Shown here: piece by piece, positions 7,141 to 63,745 of the stretch | How positions within the stretch are numbered: the first letter of the stretch is position 1 | Layout of the letters: the number at the start of each line of letters is the position of its first letter | Assembly (NCBI RefSeq): GCF_900105685.1 | Contig: NZ_LT629781.1 | Location: 1,674,001 to 1,738,000, forward strand | Length of the DNA stretch: 64,000 bases | Direction of reading: 5' to 3' | Origin: Verrucomicrobium sp. GAS474 | GTDB taxonomy: Bacteria > Verrucomicrobiota > Verrucomicrobiia > Methylacidiphilales > GAS474 | Program-made: the position numbers and the translations under genes | The notes under the pieces: generated by a model | The model's input: only the letters and a program-made list of their open reading frames with translations | The model's database searches: none | What the model was told of the DNA's origin: nothing

Positions 7141-7453
7141 GGCCGCCCGCTTCCCCAGCCTACGGACGCGTCGTTCCTCCCAAGCGGACAGGGGAACTAG
7201 CGGACTCTTTCTACCCTAAGTGGATGGCCTAATGCGGTGCGGCTAGAACAGTTCAGGCCTATCAGACGGGGAGGTCCAGGAGGGGCAGAATGCCGTCGCG
7301 TTAGCGACACTCGTTTCTCAGGGGAGACTAACTGGCATGGCCGGGAGGCAAGCCCCTCTTGCGTCGTCTAACACGTGCGGGTTACATCCACCTGTACGGG
7401 ATCTGTACCCAGTCCCGAAGGGCATCCACCGCTCCCTTCGCGCCCCCTTTCCC
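7141..7453 (+). repeat. Interspersed repeat, copy 0 (diverged), with a structured loop insertion
   Basis: This intergenic stretch between two converging genes holds the most diverged member of the 245-bp repeat family. Recognisable blocks are GTTCAGGCC at about 7250, GGAGGTCCAGGAGGGGC at 7270-7286, AGCCCCTCTTG at 7351 and GGTTACATCCACCTGTAC at 7380, in the same order and orientation as the copy at 55626. The left third (7141-7245) is barely alignable by eye. Between GGGGC and GCCCC, where other copies have a 3-nt loop, about 65 nt are inserted (7287-7350). The insert can form its own arm: ATGCC 7290-7294 with GGCAT 7334-7338, enclosing GTCGC-GTTA-GCGAC at 7295-7308. Confidence 0.7.
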
Positions 7454-15907: not shown

Positions 15908-16414
15908 ATGTCCCTCATTTCCAAAAAAATCGCCGACGCCATCAACCAGCAGATCGGCATGGAGTTCGGCGCGTCGCTCCAGTACGACGCCATCGCGGCC
16001 TACTTCGACACCGAGGCGCTCCCGAACCTGGCGAAGCATTTCTACCAGCAGGCGAATGAGGAGCGGATGCACGCCCACAAGTTCATGAAGTTCGTCATCG
16101 ACGCCGGGGCCATCGTCGAGATCCCGACGATCAAGGCGCCGCAGTCCCGCTTCAAGTGGGCCGGCGCGGCGGTGAAGCTCGCCTACGACAACGAGATCGT
16201 CGTGACGAACTCGATCAACTCGATCGCGGTCCTCGCCTCGAAGGAGGCGAATTTCACCACGCTCAACTTCCTCCAGTGGTTCATCGAGGAGCAGGTCGAA
16301 GAAGTCTCCTCCGCCGACCAGCTCCTGAAGATCGTCGAGCGGGCCGGAGAGGGCGGCGTCCTCTTCGTCGACGATTACCTCGCCCGCGCCAAGGGCGGCG
16401 AGGGGAAGAAGTAG
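15908..16414 (+). CDS. Ferritin-like iron-storage protein
   Basis: The 168-residue protein is a four-helix ferritin. The ferroxidase centre residues typical of bacterial FtnA can be seen: E19 in GMEFGASLQY, Y26, E52 and H55 in NEERMHAH, then a later Glu in YDNEIV and E/Q in WFIEEQVEE. It would oxidise Fe(II) and store iron in a 24-mer shell. The ATG at 15908 is chosen because it starts the helix cleanly and is preceded by GGGGAGAGG. An in-frame ATG 57 bp earlier adds a non-helical extension. A Gly/Lys-rich tail ends the protein. The gene is followed by the triple repeat cluster. Proximity to the Mn/Fe-dependent nrdB may be chance. Confidence 0.9.
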   Translation: MSLISKKIADAINQQIGMEFGASLQYDAIAAYFDTEALPNLAKHFYQQANEERMHAHKFMKFVIDAGAIVEIPTIKAPQSRFKWAGAAVKLAYDNEIVVTNSINSIAVLASKEANFTTLNFLQWFIEEQVEEVSSADQLLKIVERAGEGGVLFVDDYLARAKGGEGKK

Positions 16415-16429
16415 TCTTTCAGTTCCGCA

Positions 16430-16670
16430 TCGGAATAGGAGTCTGGGCGTATTGGCCCTGTCTCTCCCTATAGCTCGTACCCTCGGGCGCTCCGGGAAGC
16501 AGCCGATTTTAAAACAGTTCGGAGACGAGGCGCCGCCAAAGCGCGTCCGCCTAGCTAAGGCTCTCCGAAGGGGAGGTTCGAGGAGGGGCGAAGCCCCTCT
16601 TGGGCTATAAAGCGGATCGCCTCCAGCTGTACAGGGTCGACCGCGCAAGTCCCGAAGGGCGGTTCCCGTT
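16430..16670 (+). repeat. Interspersed repeat, copy A
   Basis: The copy runs from CGGAATAGGAGTC to the CCCGAAGGGC block, in the same orientation as copies 0 and F. Conserved landmarks are GGCGTATTGGCC, CGTACCCTCG, GCAGCCGATTTTAAAA, the GAGGGGC-GAA-GCCCCTC hairpin near 16582-16600, GGGCTATAAAGCGG and CCAGCTGTACAGGGTCGACC. It begins 15 bp after the ferritin stop. One mismatch (TCG opposite CCA) is present in the flank of the central hairpin. Confidence 0.88.
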
Positions 16671-16685
16671 CCGCGATCCCTTTCC

Positions 16686-16890
16686 CCGTGCGCCTTGTCT
16701 TCCAAGCGTCTTTCTCCCATGCGCTTGGCAGACGAAACGCTTGAGAAATAGGGCGTATGAGAAACGAAGCGCATGGGAGAGGGACGCTTGGGAGATAAGG
16801 CGTATGGGATACGGAGCGCATGCGAGAGGAACGCTTGAAAGATGAAGCGTATGGGCCGAGCGCCTAGGAGACCCACGCTGGGTAGCACCA
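16686..16890 (+). repeat. Degenerate tandem array, 47-bp period built from three 15-16-bp units
   Basis: From 16738 the sequence repeats with a period of exactly 47 bp (unit starts CGCTTG at 16738, 16785 and 16832), then 44 bp to CGCTGG at 16876. Each 47-bp block contains three related sub-units beginning CGCTTGGGAGATAAG, GCGTATGGGATACGG and GCGCATGGGAGAGGGA. Upstream, 16686-16724 carries nearly one block in the reverse orientation (TCTTCCAAGCGTC, TTTCTCCCATGCGC), so the array is an inverted arrangement around about 16730. The same sub-units follow the tails of repeat copies B, D, E and H. Confidence 0.85.
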
Positions 16891-16891
16891 C

Positions 16892-17136
16892 GGAGCGGAG
16901 CAGCCCTTCGGGACCTGCGCGGTCAACCCTGTACAGCTGGATGTAACACGCTTTAACGCCACAGAGGGGCTCCGCCCCTCCGTGACCTCCTGTTCTGAGG
17001 GCCTCAACTAGGCGGACGCGTTTCCCCCTGCGCCTCGTCTCCTAACTGTTTTAAAATCGGCTGCTTCCTGGAGCGCCCGAGGGTACGAGCCATAGGGAGA
17101 GACGGGGCCAATACGCCCAGACTCCTATTGGGAGAG
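16892..17136 (-). repeat. Interspersed repeat, copy B
   Basis: A 245-bp copy inverted relative to copy A, from GGAGCGGAGCAGCCC to ACTCCTATTGGGAGAGG. It belongs to the subfamily with CAC/GTG flanks around the central GAGGGGC hairpin (ACGCCACAGAGGGGC ... GCCCCTCCGTGACC). It is preceded by GGAGACCCACGCTGGGTAGC, which also precedes copy C, so B and C are a tandem duplication with a period of about 307 bp. Confidence 0.9.
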
Positions 17137-17201
17137 GTACGCTTGGGAGATAAGGCGTATGGGATACGGAGCCCTAGGAGACCCACGCTGGGTAGCACCA
17201 C

Positions 17202-17445
17202 CGAGCGGGGCAGCCCTTTGGGACCTGCGCGGTCAACCCTGTACAGCTGGAGGCGACCCGCTTTAACGCCACAGAGGGGCTTCGCCCCTCCGTGACCTCC
17301 TGTTCTGAGGGCCTGAACTAGGCGGACGCGCTTCCCCTGCGCCTCGTCTCCTAACTGTTTTAAAATCGGCTGCTTCCCGGAGCGCCCGAGGGTACGAGCA
17401 ATAGGGAGAGACGGGGCCCATACGCCCAGACTCCTATCGGAAGAG
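17202..17445 (-). repeat. Interspersed repeat, copy C
   Basis: A 244-bp copy nearly identical to copy B, in the same orientation and with the same CAC/GTG central hairpin flank. It ends in CTCCTATCGGAAGAG, which abuts the stop codon of the efflux outer-membrane gene at 17446. The space between B and C (17137-17201) holds array sub-units (GTACGCTTGGGAGATAAG, GCGTATGGGATACGG) and the duplicated GGAGACCCACGCTGGGTAGC leader. Confidence 0.9.
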
Positions 17446-18945
17446 CTACTGTGAGGGCAGCGTTCCCTCGGCCTGGGACTCGGCTTCCTTCTTCCCGCCT
17501 TCCTGCCAGCCGCCGCCGAGGACGCGGTAGAGCGTGACGAGGTTCTGCAAGCGGGCGAGGCGGAGGTTGATGGCAGTTTGCTGCGCTGCGAGGAAGGTGC
17601 GCTGGCGGGTGAGGGTGTTGAGGAGGGTGTCGATGCCGTTATGGAAGCGGAGCAGGGAGAGGTTGTACGATTCCTCGGCGTCTTTGGCTTCCTGCTCGGT
17701 GGCGCGGAGCTGGTCTTCGTAGGTGGCGCGGGCGGCGAGGGCGTCGGCGGTCTCGCGGAAGGCGGTCTGGATGGTCTGCTTGTATTGGGTGAGGGCGATG
17801 TCCCGGTCGATCTTGGAGACCTTGAGGTTGGCCGCGTTGACGCCGCCGTCGAAGATGGGGAGGCGGATCTCGGGGGCGAACTGCCAGAGGCCGGAACCCT
17901 TCGCGAAGAGGCCCGACATGCCGTTGGCCCCGGTGCCGACGGCGGCGGTGAGGGTGACGCTGGGGAAGAAGGCGGCGCGGGCGGCGCCGATGTTCGCGTT
18001 GTAGGCCTGGAGGGTCTGCTCGGCGGCGCGGAGGTCGGGGCGGCGGGTGAGGAGGTCGGAGGGGAGTCCGGGCGGGAGCTGGGGAAGGGAGACGGAGGAG
18101 GTGGCGAGGCCGCCGCCCTGGGTGAGGAAGACCTCGACCTCGGGGGTGAGGGGCTCGCCGAGGAGCTGTTCCAGGGCGTTGCGGCTTTGGGCGACCTGGC
18201 GGGTGGCCTGGGCGACGTCGGCCTCGGAGGAATGGAGGAGGGCCTCGGCGTCGCGGAGGGAGAGCTCGGAGATGACGCCCTGCTTGCGGCTTTGCCGGAG
18301 GGCGTCGACGCTTTGGCGCTGGGTGGCGAGGCTCTCCGTGTTGAAGCGGAGGAGGTCGCGGTCGGCGAGCCAGGTGAACCACGCCCCGGCGACTTCGGAG
18401 ACGAGGGTGATCTGGACGGAGGTCTGGGTCTCCTGGAGGGCGAGGTAGGCGTGGAGGGCCTGGTCCTTGAGGCTGCGGACGCGGCCGAAGAGGTCGAGCT
18501 CGTAGGAGGTGGTGCCGAGGCTCAGGGAATAGGCGTGGCTGGTGACGGGGGAGCCGGTCTGGGAGAGGGTCTTCGGCGTCTTCTCGATGTCGGCGGAGGC
18601 GACGCCGTCGACGGTGGGGAAGAGGAGGCTGTCGGAGATCTGGTATTGGGCGCGGGCGCGGGCGACGTTGAGGACGGCGACGCGGAGGTCGCCGTTGTTC
18701 GCGAGGGAGCGTTCGATCAGGCGCTGGAGGCGGGGATCGGTGTAGAAATCGCGCCAGCCGATGAGGTCGGCGGTCGGCTTCCCGGCGGTGTCGGTCGAGA
18801 CCGGCTTCACGGTTCCCGACTTCGGCCACGCGGGTTCGACGATGCCGTCGGCGGCGGGGCGCTGGTAATCGGGCGCCATGGTGCACCCGGCCAGGAGGAC
18901 GGGGAGGAGGAGGGCGAGGCGGCGGCGATTCGCGGGCACGTTCAT
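17446..18945 (-). CDS. RND efflux outer-membrane lipoprotein (OprM/NodT family)
   Basis: The 499-residue protein is the outer-membrane channel of a tripartite pump. A lipoprotein signal with lipobox LLAGC places the acylated Cys at residue 21, followed by MAPDYQRP, typical of OprM-like factors. Two tandem repeats rich in long helices (for example [30 protein letters not shown] and the parallel second half) match the TolC-fold barrel-tunnel proteins. Its ATG overlaps the stop of the permease gene (18942-18945), so it is the last gene of the operon. A Lys/Glu-rich tail ends the protein right at repeat copy C. The transported compounds cannot be deduced from sequence. Confidence 0.93.
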
Positions 18946-38198: not shown

Positions 38199-38233
38199 GG
38201 GCGCTGGAGAGAAGGGCGCGTCCTTTGCGCCGC

Positions 38234-38478
38234 GGAGCGGGGCGGCCCTTCGGGGCTGGCGGGGTCGACCCTGTACAGCTGGAGGCGACCCGCTTTATAG
38301 CCCAAGAGGGGCTTCGCCCCTCCTGGAACCTCCTGTTCTGAGGGCCTGAACTAGGCGGACGCACTTTGGCGGCGCCTTGTCTCCGAACTGGATTAAAATC
38401 GGATGGTTCCTGGAGCGCCCGAGGGTACGGACGATAGGGAGAGACGGGGCCAATACGCCTAGACTCCTATTGGGAGAC
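38234..38478 (-). repeat. Interspersed repeat, copy D, with array units after its tail
   Basis: A 245-bp copy in the orientation of B and C, from GGAGCGGGGCGGCCC to ACTCCTATTGGGAGACGG, of the CCA/TGG subfamily. Its tail runs into two more array sub-units (CTCTATGGGAGAGAT, GCGCTTGGGAGAAAT) up to about 38510. Together with flanks it fills the 408-bp gap between the hydrolase stop and the FIST gene. Nothing else is visible there. Confidence 0.9.
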
Positions 38479-38606
38479 GGCTCTATGGGAGAGATGCGCT
38501 TGGGAGAAATTATTCCTCTCTGTGTGGCTGGAGTTGAAAACTCCCGCTAACCCGGCAACCCCTCCGATGTTTGACAAGGCTGCCCCCCGTTCGCCAATCT
38601 GGGGGG

Positions 38607-46280: not shown

Positions 46281-47033
46281 ATGTCCTCCGATTCATCGGC
46301 AGCCTTGGTGCAATCCCTCTCGGGAAGCGCGACTCCCTATTTCGTGTTGAACCACGACATGGCGATCCTCTTCGCCAATCCCGCCGCCGGGGCGCTCCTC
46401 GGCTTCGACGCCGCCGCGCTCACCGGGCAGGCGTTGAACATTCCCTTCGCCGTCGGCGTGCCGAGCGAGCTCGATATCCTCGGCGCGGGTGGCGTCGCCC
46501 TGAAAGTCCGCGTCGATGCCGAGCTCGTCTCATGGGACGGGACGCCGGTGACCCAGCTGGCGCTGACCCCCTACGCGCAGCCCGCCCCTCCCGTGCCCGC
46601 TCCGGCCCCGGCTCCCGCCCCGCAGGCGGCTCCCCGCCCTTCGGCGGGCGGCCAGGGCAACGGCGAGCGGATCCTCGTCCTGGAAGACGACCTTTCGATC
46701 GGCGACATCCAGGGCCGTATGCTCAAGTCCCTCGGCTACAACACCGAGTGGGCGAAGACCGGCGAGGAAGCCATCGAGATGTGCAAGAAGGCCCTCGGCG
46801 AGCAGAAGCCTTTTTCGGCCGGCCTCTTCGACTTGACGATCCAGGGCGGCATGGGCGGCCAGGACGCGATGAAGGCGATCCGCCAGATCGCTCCCAATCT
46901 CCGTGCCATCGCCTGCAGCGGCTATTCCGATGACGATTTCAACGCGAAGCTGCTCGCCGAAGGCTTCCACGATATTCTCCCGAAGCCGTTTCGTGCGGCG
47001 GAGTTGGGGAAGGTGTTGAAGCGGAATTTGTAG
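46281..47033 (+). CDS. PAS-like domain fused to a C-terminal receiver domain
   Basis: The 250-residue protein has an N-terminal PAS-like domain (about 15-95: ATPYFVLNHDMAILFANPAAGALLGFDAAALTG), an extended Pro/Ala-rich linker (about 96-120) and a C-terminal receiver (ERILVLEDDLSIGDIQG ... FDLTIQGGMGGQDAM ... CSGYSDDDF ... ILPKPFR). In the receiver, the acidic pair, the FDL Asp acceptor and the Lys of PKPFR are present. The receiver is last and no kinase or output domain exists, an unusual order suggesting a sensory phospho-relay or sink. It is followed directly by repeat copy E and then flagellin. Upstream it diverges from ppc. Confidence 0.85.
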   Translation: MSSDSSAALVQSLSGSATPYFVLNHDMAILFANPAAGALLGFDAAALTGQALNIPFAVGVPSELDILGAGGVALKVRVDAELVSWDGTPVTQLALTPYAQPAPPVPAPAPAPAPQAAPRPSAGGQGNGERILVLEDDLSIGDIQGRMLKSLGYNTEWAKTGEEAIEMCKKALGEQKPFSAGLFDLTIQGGMGGQDAMKAIRQIAPNLRAIACSGYSDDDFNAKLLAEGFHDILPKPFRAAELGKVLKRNL

Positions 47034-47040
47034 GGGGGTG

Positions 47041-47280
47041 CGGAGCGCCCTTCGGGGCTGGCGGGGTCAACCCTGTACAGCTGGAGGCGACCCGCTTTAT
47101 AGCCCAAGAGGGGCTTTGCCCCTCCTGGAACCTCCTGTTCTGAGGGCCTTAACTAGGCGGACGCGTTTCCCCCTGCGCCTTATCTCCTCACTGGATTAAA
47201 ATCGGATGGTTTCGGTACGCCCGAGGGTACGTACTGAAGGGGGAGCAGTACTCATGCGCCCTGACTCCTATTGGGAGAGG
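47041..47280 (-). repeat. Interspersed repeat, copy E
   Basis: A 240-bp copy in the orientation of B-D, from CGGAGCGCCCTTCGG to CTCCTATTGGGAGAGG, of the CCA/TGG subfamily (AGCCCAAGAGGGGCTTTGCCCCTCCTGGAACC). The region around 47227-47252 differs from most copies and can form GTACT ... AGTAC. It begins 7 bp after the PAS-receiver stop. Confidence 0.9.
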
Positions 47281-47568
47281 GGCGCTTGGGAGAAATTGTC
47301 TGTTCTTGTGCTGGCGCAGGGGAAGCGCATGGCCTCTCTCTCCGGCAATCCCTGTACTCTTCGACCGTTTTTCGGTTCTCTATAGCGGAATCGTCTGAAA
47401 TCGGCTTTTCGGCACAAAATACCGGTCTTGTACAGGAAAAATTTTCCTCAGAAAGATGCCGTACCTTTCTCCTTTTTTGCCTCCCGGAACTTTTTGCCGA
47501 TGCTTCGGTCGGAAAAATAAATTTATAACTCGTTTATTGTAATATACTTACAAAATATTTTAAAACTT

Positions 47569-55576: not shown

Positions 55577-55625
55577 GCCGCTTCGGTTCCGCCAGCCTGC
55601 GGACGCATGATTCCCCCATCCGCTT

Positions 55626-55868
55626 CTCTCCCGATAGGAGTCTAGGCGTATTGGCCCCGCTACCCCTTCAGTCCGTACCCTCGGACGCTCCGGAAGCAGC
55701 CGATTTTAATCCAGTTCGGAGACAAGGCGCCGCCCAAGCGCGTCCGCCTAGCTAAGGCCCTCCGAACAGGAGGTTCCAGGAGGGGCAAAGCCCCTCTTGG
55801 GCTATAAAGCGGGTTACATCCAGCTGTACCGGGTCGACCGCGCAAGCCCCGAAGGGCTGCCCCGCTCC
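55626..55868 (+). repeat. Interspersed repeat, copy F
   Basis: A 243-bp copy in the orientation of A, from CTCTCCCGATAGGAGTC to CGAAGGGCTGCCCCGCTCC, of the CCA/TGG subfamily, lying in the 322-bp gap between the converging VWA and khpB/jag genes. It has GGGTTACATCCAGCTGTACC where most copies have GGGTCGCCTCCAGCTGTAC, a variant shared with copies 0 and B. Nothing else is visible in the gap. Confidence 0.9.
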
Positions 55869-55898
55869 CATGGCGTCCAAGGAAGACGCACTCGCCCC

Positions 55899-56431: not shown

Positions 56432-58258
56432 CTATCGCTTGAAGCTGATGCCGTTCCCCGGCGCGGCTTTCTTCACCCGCTGAAGGACCGGAAGGGGCTT
56501 CTTGAGGTTCCGGTAGGTCTGGAACATCGAGATGAAGTTGTTCACCGTCCAGTAGAGGGCGAGGGCCGAGGCGAAGTTGTAGAAGAAGATCAGCATGATG
56601 AAGGGCATGAACTGGAGGATCTTCATCTGCGCGGCGTCCCCGGTCTGCGGGGTGATCCGCATGAGGGCCCACTGGGAGAGGGTCATGATGATCGGGAGCG
56701 GGTTGATCGGAAGGTTCACGCCGGGGAGGACGGCGATGGTGTCGGGCTGGACGAGGTCCTTGATCCAGAACCAGGTCTCGTGCCGGAATTCGACGGCGCT
56801 CTGGAGCATGGTGTAGAAGCCGATGAAGATCGGGATCTGGATGAGCATCGGGAGGCAGCCGCCGAGGGGGTTCACGCCGTACTCGCGGTAGAGCTTCATG
56901 ACTTCCTGCTGCATCTTCGCGGGATCGTCCTTGTACTTCGCCGAGATCTCCTTCTGCTTCGGGGCGACGGCCTGCATGAGCTTCATGCTGTGGTTGGCCT
57001 TCGACTGAAGGGGCCAGAAGATCCCCTTGAGGCAGGCGGTGAGGAGGATGATCGACCAGCCGTAGCTGGGGATGACGGTGTGGATCCACTTCATCGCCTT
57101 GAGGAGGGGGAGGGCCGCCCAGGCGAAGAAGCCGAAGTCCATGAGGGCCTTCTGGCCCTGGCCGAGGGTGGCGAGCTCGTCGTATTCCTTCGGACCGGCG
57201 TAGAGGGAGTAGTCCTCGGTGCGGGTCTCGTTCGGGTTCAGGGTGAAGGGGGCGAAGGTGGCCGAGGCGGAGACGGCGGGGAGGATTGTCCCGGCGGGGC
57301 TGGGGGCCTGGGGATGGCCGGGGCGGTAGATGAGGGAGGTGACGCGGCGGATGGGGTCGCCCTCCGGCGCGGTCAGGACGACGGTGAAGAAGCGGTTCCG
57401 CACGGCGGCCCAGCCGATCTTCTCCTCGGGTCCGGCGATGCCGTCGCGGGCGGGATGGGGGCTGATGAAGTTGAAGCTGCCGCTCGCCTCGAACTCGGGC
57501 GCGGTGATGTGGCCGGTCGCCTTGTTGCTGCCGGCCTGGGACCAGGTGGCGCCGATCGTGGGGGGGCCGTCATTGTGGTAGAGGGGGCCGACGAGGCCGA
57601 TCTGGGCCTGACGCTCGGGGAGGGAGAGGGCCTGGCCGGTGGTGTTCGTGAGCCGTTCCTCGAGCTTCACGCCGTAGGAGCCGTCGAGGGTGTAGAGGCG
57701 CTCGATGCGGAGGCCGTTCGGGAGGGTGCGGGCGAAGGCGACGTGGGTCTCGTCGGCGCCGGGCTCCAGCTGGTAGTCGATGGCCGACTCGGTCTCGGCG
57801 GTGTTCCAGCCGGTGAGGTTGAAGATGGGGAGGGCGACGTGGTCGACGGCGGCGAGGCCGGGGCCGTTCAGGAGGACGGGGTCGCCGCCCTTGATCTCGG
57901 CGTGCTGCTTCAGGACGATCGTGGCGGGGCCGCCGCCGTGGCTGGTGAAGGTGACGCGGATGGCGCTGTTTTCCAGGACGGGACGCGCTTCGGGGAAGGA
58001 GACGGCGGGAGCCGGGGCGGGCTTGGCCTTCGCCTTTTCCTTCTCGCCGGGGAGGGCGCTGAGGGTCGGCGTGGAGGCCGGTTCGGCCGCGGTCGCGGGG
58101 GTGGCGATCTTCGCGACGTCGGCGGGATTCGGGCGCGGGGGGGTCTTCGGCGAGGGCCAGCGGGCGGTGGAGTAGAAGGTCCAGCCGACGAGGGCGGCGA
58201 CGCAGAGGCCGACGGCGAGCCAATCCGATTTGCCGAGGCGGGGGGAGGGTTCGTTCAT
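56432..58258 (-). CDS. yidC: Membrane protein insertase YidC
   Basis: The 608-residue insertase has one N-terminal membrane helix (about 10-28), an Ala/Pro-rich stretch, a large periplasmic beta domain (about 80-370) and the conserved C-terminal five-helix core: IPSYGWSIILLTACLKGIFWPLQSKANHSMKLMQ with the functional Arg-equivalent position, KYKDDPAKMQQEVMKLYREYGVNPLGGCLPMLIQIPIFIGFYTML, and a last basic tail. The Gram-negative-type periplasmic domain supports a diderm cell. It inserts respiratory and other membrane proteins with or without SecYEG. It follows yidD by 39 bp in the rpmH-rnpA-yidD-yidC-khpB run. Confidence 0.97.
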   Translation of the reverse strand: MNEPSPRLGKSDWLAVGLCVAALVGWTFYSTARWPSPKTPPRPNPADVAKIATPATAAEPASTPTLSALPGEKEKAKAKPAPAPAVSFPEARPVLENSAIRVTFTSHGGGPATIVLKQHAEIKGGDPVLLNGPGLAAVDHVALPIFNLTGWNTAETESAIDYQLEPGADETHVAFARTLPNGLRIERLYTLDGSYGVKLEERLTNTTGQALSLPERQAQIGLVGPLYHNDGPPTIGATWSQAGSNKATGHITAPEFEASGSFNFISPHPARDGIAGPEEKIGWAAVRNRFFTVVLTAPEGDPIRRVTSLIYRPGHPQAPSPAGTILPAVSASATFAPFTLNPNETRTEDYSLYAGPKEYDELATLGQGQKALMDFGFFAWAALPLLKAMKWIHTVIPSYGWSIILLTACLKGIFWPLQSKANHSMKLMQAVAPKQKEISAKYKDDPAKMQQEVMKLYREYGVNPLGGCLPMLIQIPIFIGFYTMLQSAVEFRHETWFWIKDLVQPDTIAVLPGVNLPINPLPIIMTLSQWALMRITPQTGDAAQMKILQFMPFIMLIFFYNFASALALYWTVNNFISMFQTYRNLKKPLPVLQRVKKAAPGNGISFKR

Positions 58259-59198: not shown

Positions 59199-59300
59199 AA
59201 CGATGGTTCTCTAAAATTGCTAGGGCCGGTTAGACTGAACGTACCGTTTTGGCAATGCAAGCGGTTTTTTACCCTCTTTTGTGTACATAGTCTAGGAGGG

Positions 59301-59545
59301 GGGGCGGGGCGGCCCTTCGGGACCTGCGCGGTCAACCCGGTACAGCTGGAGGCGATCCGCTTTATAGCCCAAGAGGGGCTTTGCCCCTCCTGGAACCTCC
59401 TGTTCTGAAGGCCTTAGCTAGCCGGACGCGCTTGGGCGGCGCCTCGTCTCCTAACTGGATTAAAATCCGCTGCTTCCCTGAGCGTCCGAGGGTACGAGTG
59501 ATAGGGAGAGACGGGGCCAATACGCCCAGACTCGTATTGGGAGAA
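59301..59545 (-). repeat. Interspersed repeat, copy G
   Basis: A 245-bp copy in the orientation of B-E, from GGGGCGGGGCGGCCC to ACTCGTATTGGGAGAAGG, of the CCA/TGG subfamily, filling most of the 361-bp gap between rpmH and sufS. It is the most base-changed of the good copies (CTTAGCTAGCCGG, CCGCTGCTTCCCTGAGCGTCC). The remaining 100 bp next to rpmH (59199-59300) hold its AT-rich promoter region. Confidence 0.9.
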
Positions 59546-59559
59546 GGATGCGTCCGGGC

Positions 59560-60807
59560 CTATGCCTGGAAGAATGTGACGGCTCCGGCGACGGCTTGGA
59601 CTAGCCGCTCGACCTCTTCCTCGGTGTTATAAAGGTAGAAGCTCGCCCGGGTCGTCGCGGGGACGCCGAGGCGGTGCATCAGGGGCTGGGCGCAGTGGTG
59701 GCCGGCGCGGAGGGCGACGCCTTTTCCGTTGGTGTAGTAGGCCATGTCGTGCGCGTGGACGGTCTCGGAGACGAAGGAGACGATGCCGGTCTGCCGCCCC
59801 CCGGCCTCCGGCCCGATGACGCGGATGCCGGGGATCTTCCGCAGCCCGGCGGCGGCGAGTTCGGCGAGGTGGACGGAGTGGTCCTCGATCGCCTTCAGGC
59901 CGACGCCGTCGAGGAAGTCGAGCGCGGCGCCGAGGCCGACGGCCTCGACGATGGGAGGGGTCCCGGCCTCGAAGCGGGCGGGCGGGGGACGGTAGGTGAT
60001 CGCGTCGAAGCGGACCTTCTCGACCATGCTGCCGCCGTGCTGCCACGGGGGGAGGTTCTCCATGAGGGCGAGGGTGCCGACGAGGAGGCCGACGCCGGTG
60101 GGGCCGCAGGCCTTGTGGGCGGAGCAGGCGAAGAAGTCGCAGCCGAGGGCCTCGATGTCGACGGGGAGGTGGCCGAAGCTCTGCGCGCCGTCGACGAAGG
60201 TGGTGACGCCGTGGCTCCGGGCGAGGGCGCAGAGCTCGGCGGCGGGGGTGAGGAAGCCGAGGACGTTCGAGGCGTGGGCGAAGGCGAAGAGCTTCGGCTT
60301 CTTCGCCAGCAGCGCCTGCGCGGCGGCGAGGTCGAGGGCGGCGCCGTTGTCGGTGACGGGGACGTATTCGACCTTGGCCCCCTTGCGCTCGGCGAGGGCG
60401 CGCCATGGCAGCATGTTGCTGTGGTGTTCCATCTCGGTGAGGAGGATCGTGTCCCCCGCCGCGAGATGGACCTCGCCCCACGACCAGGCGACGAGGTTGA
60501 CGGCCTCGGTCGTCCCCCGGGTGAAGATGGCGACGCGGCCGCCCCCGGCGCGGAGGAAGGCGGCGGCCCGTTCCCGCGCCCCCTCGTAGGCGACGGTGGC
60601 CGCCTCGCTCAGATCGTAGACGCCGCGATGGACGTTCGCGTACTCGTGGAGGGCGAAGGCGTGCATCCGGTCATAGACGGCGCGCGGCTTCTGCGCGCTG
60701 GCGGCGCTGTCGAGGAAGGCGAGGGGACGGTCGTCCTTGCCCTTGTTGGCGAGGTAGGGGAAGGCGCTGCGCCACCGGGGGCTGTCGGGAAAGGGGCTCG
60801 GGCTCAT
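59560..60807 (-). CDS. sufS: Cysteine desulfurase, SufS type
   Basis: The 415-residue PLP enzyme takes sulfur from cysteine for Fe-S cluster building. The PLP lysine lies in FFACSAHKACGPTGVGLL (about 225), the substrate-binding His in EMEHHSNMLPWR and the catalytic Cys in GHHCAQPLMHRLG (about 366). The ANVHRGVYDLSEAAT start region and short RAGHHCAQ loop define the group II (SufS/CsdA) type. The ATG at 60807 overlaps the stop of the Mpv17-like gene by 4 bp, so it is translationally coupled. It is last in an operon with an A-type carrier, but no SufBCD genes are in view. Confidence 0.95.
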   Translation of the reverse strand: MSPSPFPDSPRWRSAFPYLANKGKDDRPLAFLDSAASAQKPRAVYDRMHAFALHEYANVHRGVYDLSEAATVAYEGARERAAAFLRAGGGRVAIFTRGTTEAVNLVAWSWGEVHLAAGDTILLTEMEHHSNMLPWRALAERKGAKVEYVPVTDNGAALDLAAAQALLAKKPKLFAFAHASNVLGFLTPAAELCALARSHGVTTFVDGAQSFGHLPVDIEALGCDFFACSAHKACGPTGVGLLVGTLALMENLPPWQHGGSMVEKVRFDAITYRPPPARFEAGTPPIVEAVGLGAALDFLDGVGLKAIEDHSVHLAELAAAGLRKIPGIRVIGPEAGGRQTGIVSFVSETVHAHDMAYYTNGKGVALRAGHHCAQPLMHRLGVPATTRASFYLYNTEEEVERLVQAVAGAVTFFQA

Positions 60808-63426: not shown

Positions 63427-63467
63427 GCGGGGGGCGTTCCAAGCGTATCGCTTCCCTGGATGCCGCG

Positions 63468-63710
63468 GGAGCGGGGCAGCCCTTCGGGGCTGGCGCGGTC
63501 AACCCTGTACAGCTGGAGGCGACCCGCTTTATAGCCACAGAGGGGCTTCGCCCCTCCGTGACCTCCCCTTCGGAGGGCCTGAACTAGGCGGACGCGCTTT
63601 GGCGGCGCCTCGTCTCCGAACTGGATTAAAATCGGCTGCTTCCTGGAACGCCCGAGGGTACGAACTGAAGGGGTGGCGGTACCAATACGCCTAGACTCCT
63701 ATCGGAAGAG
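63468..63710 (-). repeat. Interspersed repeat, copy H
   Basis: A 243-bp copy in the orientation of B-G, from GGAGCGGGGCAGCCC to ACTCCTATCGGAAGAG, of the CAC/GTG subfamily (AGCCACAGAGGGGC ... GCCCCTCCGTGACC) but with TTATAGCC as in the other group. The next hairpin reads CCTCCCCTTCGGAGGG instead of CCTCCTGTTCTGAGGG. Array sub-units follow (GCGTATGGGAGAGGGA at 63713, GCGCTTACGG). It fills most of the gap between converging genes. Confidence 0.9.
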
Positions 63711-63745
63711 AAGCGTATGGGAGAGGGAGCGCTTACGGAAGTCCC

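Follow-up and report, generated by a model that had tools for sequence, protein, structure and literature searches.

Dispersed non-coding palindromes of several kinds occur between bacterial genes. The MITE-like intergenic palindromes (ERIC/RU, Correia/NEMIS and RPE) are 100-250 nt long, non-coding and dispersed, and each is limited to a single lineage. The BIMEs of Escherichia coli bind gyrase and nucleoid proteins, and IS1397 enters the loops of REPs. The subfamilies of published REPs are defined by alternative complementary residues of the stem, their GTAG ends supply TAG stop codons, and they are placed between convergent and unidirectional genes (PMC3733652). Transcription of REPs and an effect on mRNA are assumed for other bacteria (PMC3733652), and a mismatch in the REP stem is needed by the transposase (PMC8266576). 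Certain insertion sequences have REPs as their targets (PMC1525189).

The repeat of Verrucomicrobium sp. GAS474 analysed here is a composite palindromic element of ~245 nt with several hairpins. It is similar to REPs and BIMEs in its high copy number, its intergenic position downstream of genes and between convergent genes, the TAG stops at its ends, the conserved mismatch in a hairpin, subfamilies with complementary stems, and the composite head/tail pairs. However, the unit of REPs is 20-40 bp long, their hairpin is beside the TAG end, whereas the central hairpin of the GAS474 repeat is ~100 nt from it, and no RAYT gene was found in the GAS474 genome. Intergenic placement in convergent and unidirectional contexts is present, as is a hairpin irregularity combined with complementary changes of the stem. 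Nevertheless, the repeat is not filed as a REP, even though it works like a REP or BIME, because both the short unit and the RAYT gene are missing. The repeat shares its non-coding, dispersed, intergenic and lineage-restricted nature with the MITE-like palindromes. In contrast to MITEs, single GAS474 units lack terminal inverted repeats, which only the inverted pairs of ~520 nt have, and the whole unit does not fold into one long hairpin. The insertion sequences that target REPs have a counterpart in a ~62-nt element found in the loop of the central hairpin, H2, or in the next hairpin (21 copies), but this nested element is tiny and non-coding.

Copies of the repeat in the window and the genome

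The window is a 64-kb stretch, positions 1,674,001-1,738,000 of the 3,763,444-bp single-contig GAS474 genome. Eight of its copies, A to H, were aligned, and in them an A and a C remain unpaired between the 7-bp core of H2 and three outer pairs. The copies and associated features are as follows.

7280-7435 (ends approximate), minus strand: diverged type IIa copy with a ~62-nt mini-element nested in its H2 loop
7280-7352 (approximate), minus strand: nested mini-element in the H2 loop of the type IIa copy
~16420-16690, minus strand: copy A, type I; core 16583-16599; outer stem CCA/TCG, in which C.C breaks the middle pair
16727-16864, no strand assigned: array with a ~47-nt period (three 15-16-nt repeats each) between A and B, a divergent pair of copies
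16870-17150, plus strand: copy B, type I
16960-16984, plus strand: hairpin H2 of copy B; outer arms CAC at 16960-16962 and GTG at 16982-16984
16964-16980, plus strand: H2 core of copy B, GAGGGGC-TCC-GCCCCTC; unpaired A at 16963 and unpaired C at 16981
17129-17172, no strand assigned: further unit of the ~47-nt array between copies B and C
17180-17447, plus strand: copy C, type I, CAC/GTG; core 17274-17290; tandem duplicate of B
38225-38490, plus strand: copy D, CCA/TGG; core 38306-38322
47020-47300, plus strand: copy E, CCA/TGG, loop TTT; core 47108-47124
55605-55885, minus strand: copy F, CCA/TGG, loop TTT; core 55780-55796
59290-59560, plus strand: copy G, CCA/TGG, loop TTT; core 59373-59389
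63455-63727, plus strand: copy H, CAC/GTG; core 63540-63556

The alignment bears out the earlier note on this DNA in that D, E, F and G have CCA...TGG, and B, C and H have CAC...GTG, around the 7-bp stem GAGGGGC/GCCCCTC. The note had read these letters correctly in B to H but left out copy A and the diverged type IIa copy, and the interval that it discussed, 16892-17136, covers copy B only. The loop, which it had described as an invariant TTC, varies: it is TTC in A, C, D and H, TCC in B, and TTT in E, F and G. Copies B and C are 94-95% identical and are not independent, since they result from a local tandem duplication; copy C extends to the stop codon of a minus-strand efflux gene (17446-18945). 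The window contains ten core-like palindromes with up to two mismatches, compared to 2.3 expected, and none of 100 shuffled sequences reaches ten. The gaps between repeat copies are occupied by 15-16-nt repeats of the type TTGGGAGA..A.GCG, three per 47-nt period, which in many copies throughout the genome also continue past the right end.

The exact sequence GAGGGGCTTCGCCCCTC occurs at 77 sites in the GAS474 genome, and its reversed control at none. Pattern and DNA searches together with a profile scan of the GAS474 stretches around the copies provided 176 matches, corresponding to 131 loci (at least 130 sites). The genome-wide set includes 101 full-length type I copies, nine type I copies with a 61-nt insert, and copies of types IIa (20) and IIb (11), which have only the left module in common with type I. 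Inverted half-copies and full copies form the pairs of ~520 nt. The repeat is dense in most of the chromosome and nearly absent from ~2.4 to 3.3 Mb. No match at all was found in a congener (G001), and no related copies were found in the phages, plasmids and viral contigs searched.

Selection by the right-hand module alone, and thus blind to the hairpin, yielded 112 copies, nearly all of which have an intact H2 core; the exceptions, counted from the sequences, are the copies at 57138, 336724, 579497, 3534134 and 2829201. The A.C mismatch is a feature of every type I copy whose core is exact (99) and of all copies of types IIa (20) and IIb (11).

Linkage within type I and pairing across subfamilies

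Type I copies whose core is exact (99) fall into three versions: CAC/GTG (37), CCA/TGG (30) and CCA/TCG (32), the last with a broken middle outer pair. The two arms are perfectly coupled, and the intermediates CAC/TGG and CCA/GTG are absent. All 37 CAC copies have GTG together with the same 1-nt deletion just 3' of it, and this haplotype often carries two substitutions in unpaired neighbouring positions. A G-test of every variable column places the two hairpin pairs second and ninth. Column pairs 71-92 and 71-72 tie with the hairpin pair 72-92, column pair 72-93 ties with the hairpin pair 71-93, and the non-pairing combinations 71-92, 92-95 and 72-95 score equal or nearly equal to the two hairpin pairs. 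The association with the hairpin state is 1.0 within the block, 0.69 at a distance of four to six bases to its left, and mostly 0.1-0.4 farther out, where columns 132-139 form a second linked block; the coupling around the hairpin fades over ~40 nt. On a tree of the copies, the hairpin state has to change 32 times. Many forks of this tree have weak support, which is what shuffled blocks would produce, and the tree was therefore not relied on for counting independent origins.

Since unpaired neighbours are coupled as tightly as the pairs and the coupling decays with distance, one ancestral double change is sufficient within type I. Judged from the alignment, the difference between CAC/GTG and CCA/TGG looks like a single haplotype difference that was spread by copying and gene conversion, and the covariation within type I does not prove selection on pairing. 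The exchange of two neighbouring pairs had been put forward as a sign that pairing is kept, with one ancestral double change named as the outcome that would speak against it, and within type I this is the situation that was found.

The claim that pairing rather than sequence is kept does stand across subfamilies and species. The sister species is represented by the MAG of uncultured Verrucomicrobium I3b_bin-317, which has the same genus code. Its type-I-like copies have CAA...TTG, with flanks otherwise nearly identical to those of GAS474 type I, and those copies that retain both arms also carry the A.C mismatch. The outer stem of type IIb is TGCA...TGCA, and GCA...TGG of type IIa is its mismatched relative. 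Outer stems with maintained pairing thus include CCA/TGG, CAC/GTG, CAA/TTG and GCA/TGC. The hairpin of a further subfamily, IIc, is CGGAGGGG-CACG-CCCCTCCG in GAS474 and TGGAGGGCG-TGC-CGCCCTCCA in the sister MAG; of its nine pairs, three (1, 2 and 9 from the loop) differ in both arms, and no pair differs in one arm only. In nine hairpin versions, 87 of 99 pairs are Watson-Crick, compared to 74 expected from permutation of the right arms relative to the left arms (p = 7e-5), and the two pairs highlighted by the earlier note are paired in 15 of 18 cases compared to 8 expected (p = 3e-4), p-values that are indicative only because the nine versions are related. The central hairpin is real and conserved by pairing rather than by sequence, with the A.C mismatch kept inside it, because related subfamilies and the sister species keep the pairing while the letters change.

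Gene context, folding and nested elements

Gene calls were made using a simple hexamer model and are not a curated annotation. On this basis, the 131 loci are in convergent (57), tandem (54), divergent (8) and undecided (12) gene contexts, and a called gene is overlapped by only one of them. The background gene pairs of the window are 8 convergent, 28 tandem and 8 divergent, so that convergent placement is enriched (57 of 119 loci vs 8 of 44 pairs, p = 6e-4). The left ends usually begin at the stop codon of a gene, which is TAG in 45 of 64 abutting ends vs 34 of 83 elsewhere (p = 5e-4) and is typically followed by GGGG. A G precedes TAG in 31 of 45 left ends vs 36 of 82 elsewhere, a comparison confounded with codon usage, and a GTAG end of the repeat is therefore suggested but not established. 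The gene 5' of the module reads into it in 90 of 127 cases. Genes at the right end run into the repeat in 66 cases and away from it in 28, about as frequently as at the left end. There is no orientation bias in tandem gene contexts (19 vs 14, p = 0.49), and this test does not support a strand-specific RNA function.

When folded on their own, the outer hairpins have z-scores of -2.1 to -5.7, whereas the whole 261-nt repeat folds no better than shuffled sequences (z -0.4 to -1.1). RNAalifold analysis of both strands identified almost no covariation in other helices of the 245-nt unit. Read in the minus strand, the A.C mismatch is a G.U or G.T wobble, and the loop sequence is GAA, AAA, GGA or GCA. 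The fully paired versions are predicted to form a continuous 11-bp RNA stem with energies of -22 to -24 kcal/mol in this strand. Predicted energies favor the minus strand as both RNA and DNA and do not discriminate between RNA and single-stranded DNA. The GAA-loop form of the minus strand contains GCGAAGC, which we take to be an unusually stable DNA mini-hairpin. A scan of 16350-17500 contains no terminator-like site with a U tract, and the only Rfam match in the window is a tRNA, leaving the repeat unmatched.

A search for Y1/RAYT transposases (PF01797) provided no match in the GAS474 genome, although control genomes were matched, and two matches in the sister MAG, where the flanking palindrome is another one, AGCCGGTGGTT.... 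These two IS200-like/RAYT genes (loci L175 and L176 of the sister MAG, G002) encode 148-151 aa and are accompanied by the palindrome AGCCGGTGGTTGAGG...CCACCGGTTT; the transposases and their flanking palindrome are probably a separate REP-transposase pair. A Y1 transposase was therefore rejected as the mobilizer of the repeat: GAS474 has none, and those of the sister belong to another palindrome.

The nested mini-element of ~62 nt, TTGCCTCCCGGCC...AGTTAGTTTCCCC...GGCAGTC, is present at 21 places in the GAS474 stretches, a set enriched for repeats. Eight of these insertions occupy precisely the H2 loop, and the other 13 occupy the next hairpin; the host copies belong to several subfamilies, and the sister MAG contains two occurrences. 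The mini-element has a terminal hairpin of its own, of which there are two compensated versions (GTCGC/GCGAC and TGCGC/GCGCA).

Explanations for the conserved hairpin

The reading that is somewhat favored is that the repeat is a REP/BIME-like, non-autonomous and probably once-mobile intergenic element that docks at stop codons, with H2 kept as a folded strand. H2 would consist of a 7-bp G+C stem with a three-base loop, the conserved A.C mismatch and two to four weaker outer pairs, and would be kept because it was recognized as a folded single strand during copying or movement of the element. CCA/TGG, CCA/TCG and CAC/GTG may represent three old haplotypes of the hairpin block, each with one origin, which were shuffled among copies by recombination. 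In this account we infer that the element was mobile, that H2 was recognized as single-stranded DNA, and that gene conversion spread the versions. The compensations across subfamilies and species, the intact core, the haplotype linkage, the placement at gene ends and the traits in common with REPs speak for it. The length of the unit, the failure to find a Y1/RAYT gene in GAS474, the different palindrome around those of the sister MAG and the confounded GTAG end speak against it.

It is also possible, if rather unlikely, that the selection is at the level of RNA, and that H2 and its neighbors are 3'-UTR hairpins that stabilize or process the transcripts of the adjoining genes or terminate them. 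The location of the elements directly 3' of stop codons, the frequent reading of the 5'-side gene into the module, the continuous minus-strand stem enabled by the G.U pair, and the mRNA-level action proposed for REPs elsewhere are consistent with such a role, but the unbiased orientation in tandem contexts, the similarly common entry of genes from the right end, the lack of a U tract or terminator in the scanned region and of an Rfam match, and the outer pair broken in one third of type I copies all argue against it. The placement between convergent genes without strand preference would also fit a cruciform or a binding site of gyrase or nucleoid proteins that serves chromosome topology; this appears very improbable, because the sharp drop of copy density beyond 2.4 Mb and the complete absence of the repeat from the congener are not expected of a needed chromosome function.

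Pairing might not be selected at all, if one ancestral double change, or a templated quasi-palindrome mutation, was multiplied by copying. The shared deletion of the CAC copies and their lack of intermediates, the equal coupling of non-pairing columns, and the 32 state changes on weak forks of the tree are what this explanation predicts within type I. Nevertheless, it is improbable for the repeat as a whole, because it leaves unexplained CAA/TTG and GCA/TGC, the three IIc pairs that differ on both sides between species, and the core that is intact in nearly all copies selected blind to the hairpin. Furthermore, the A.C mismatch is retained in both versions, although a templated correction that started at the core and moved outward would be expected to have removed it. 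The positions of the mini-element allow a more specific, speculative proposal that we consider doubtful: the repeat may belong to a RAYT-independent family of large palindromic elements docked at stop codons, in which the hairpin is a structure-specific landing site for the ~62-nt element. In this case, insertion exactly into the H2 loop and the next hairpin would mean that cells contain the hairpin in the form of folded single-stranded DNA.

The repeat of GAS474 illustrates that covariation within one genome may be pure haplotype linkage. As a REP/BIME-like element, it represents a hairpin-conserving repeat population in a little-studied lineage of Verrucomicrobiota, in a genome without a detectable RAYT. 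The loop-specific nested insertions would offer a natural assay for the extrusion of the hairpin as single-stranded DNA.
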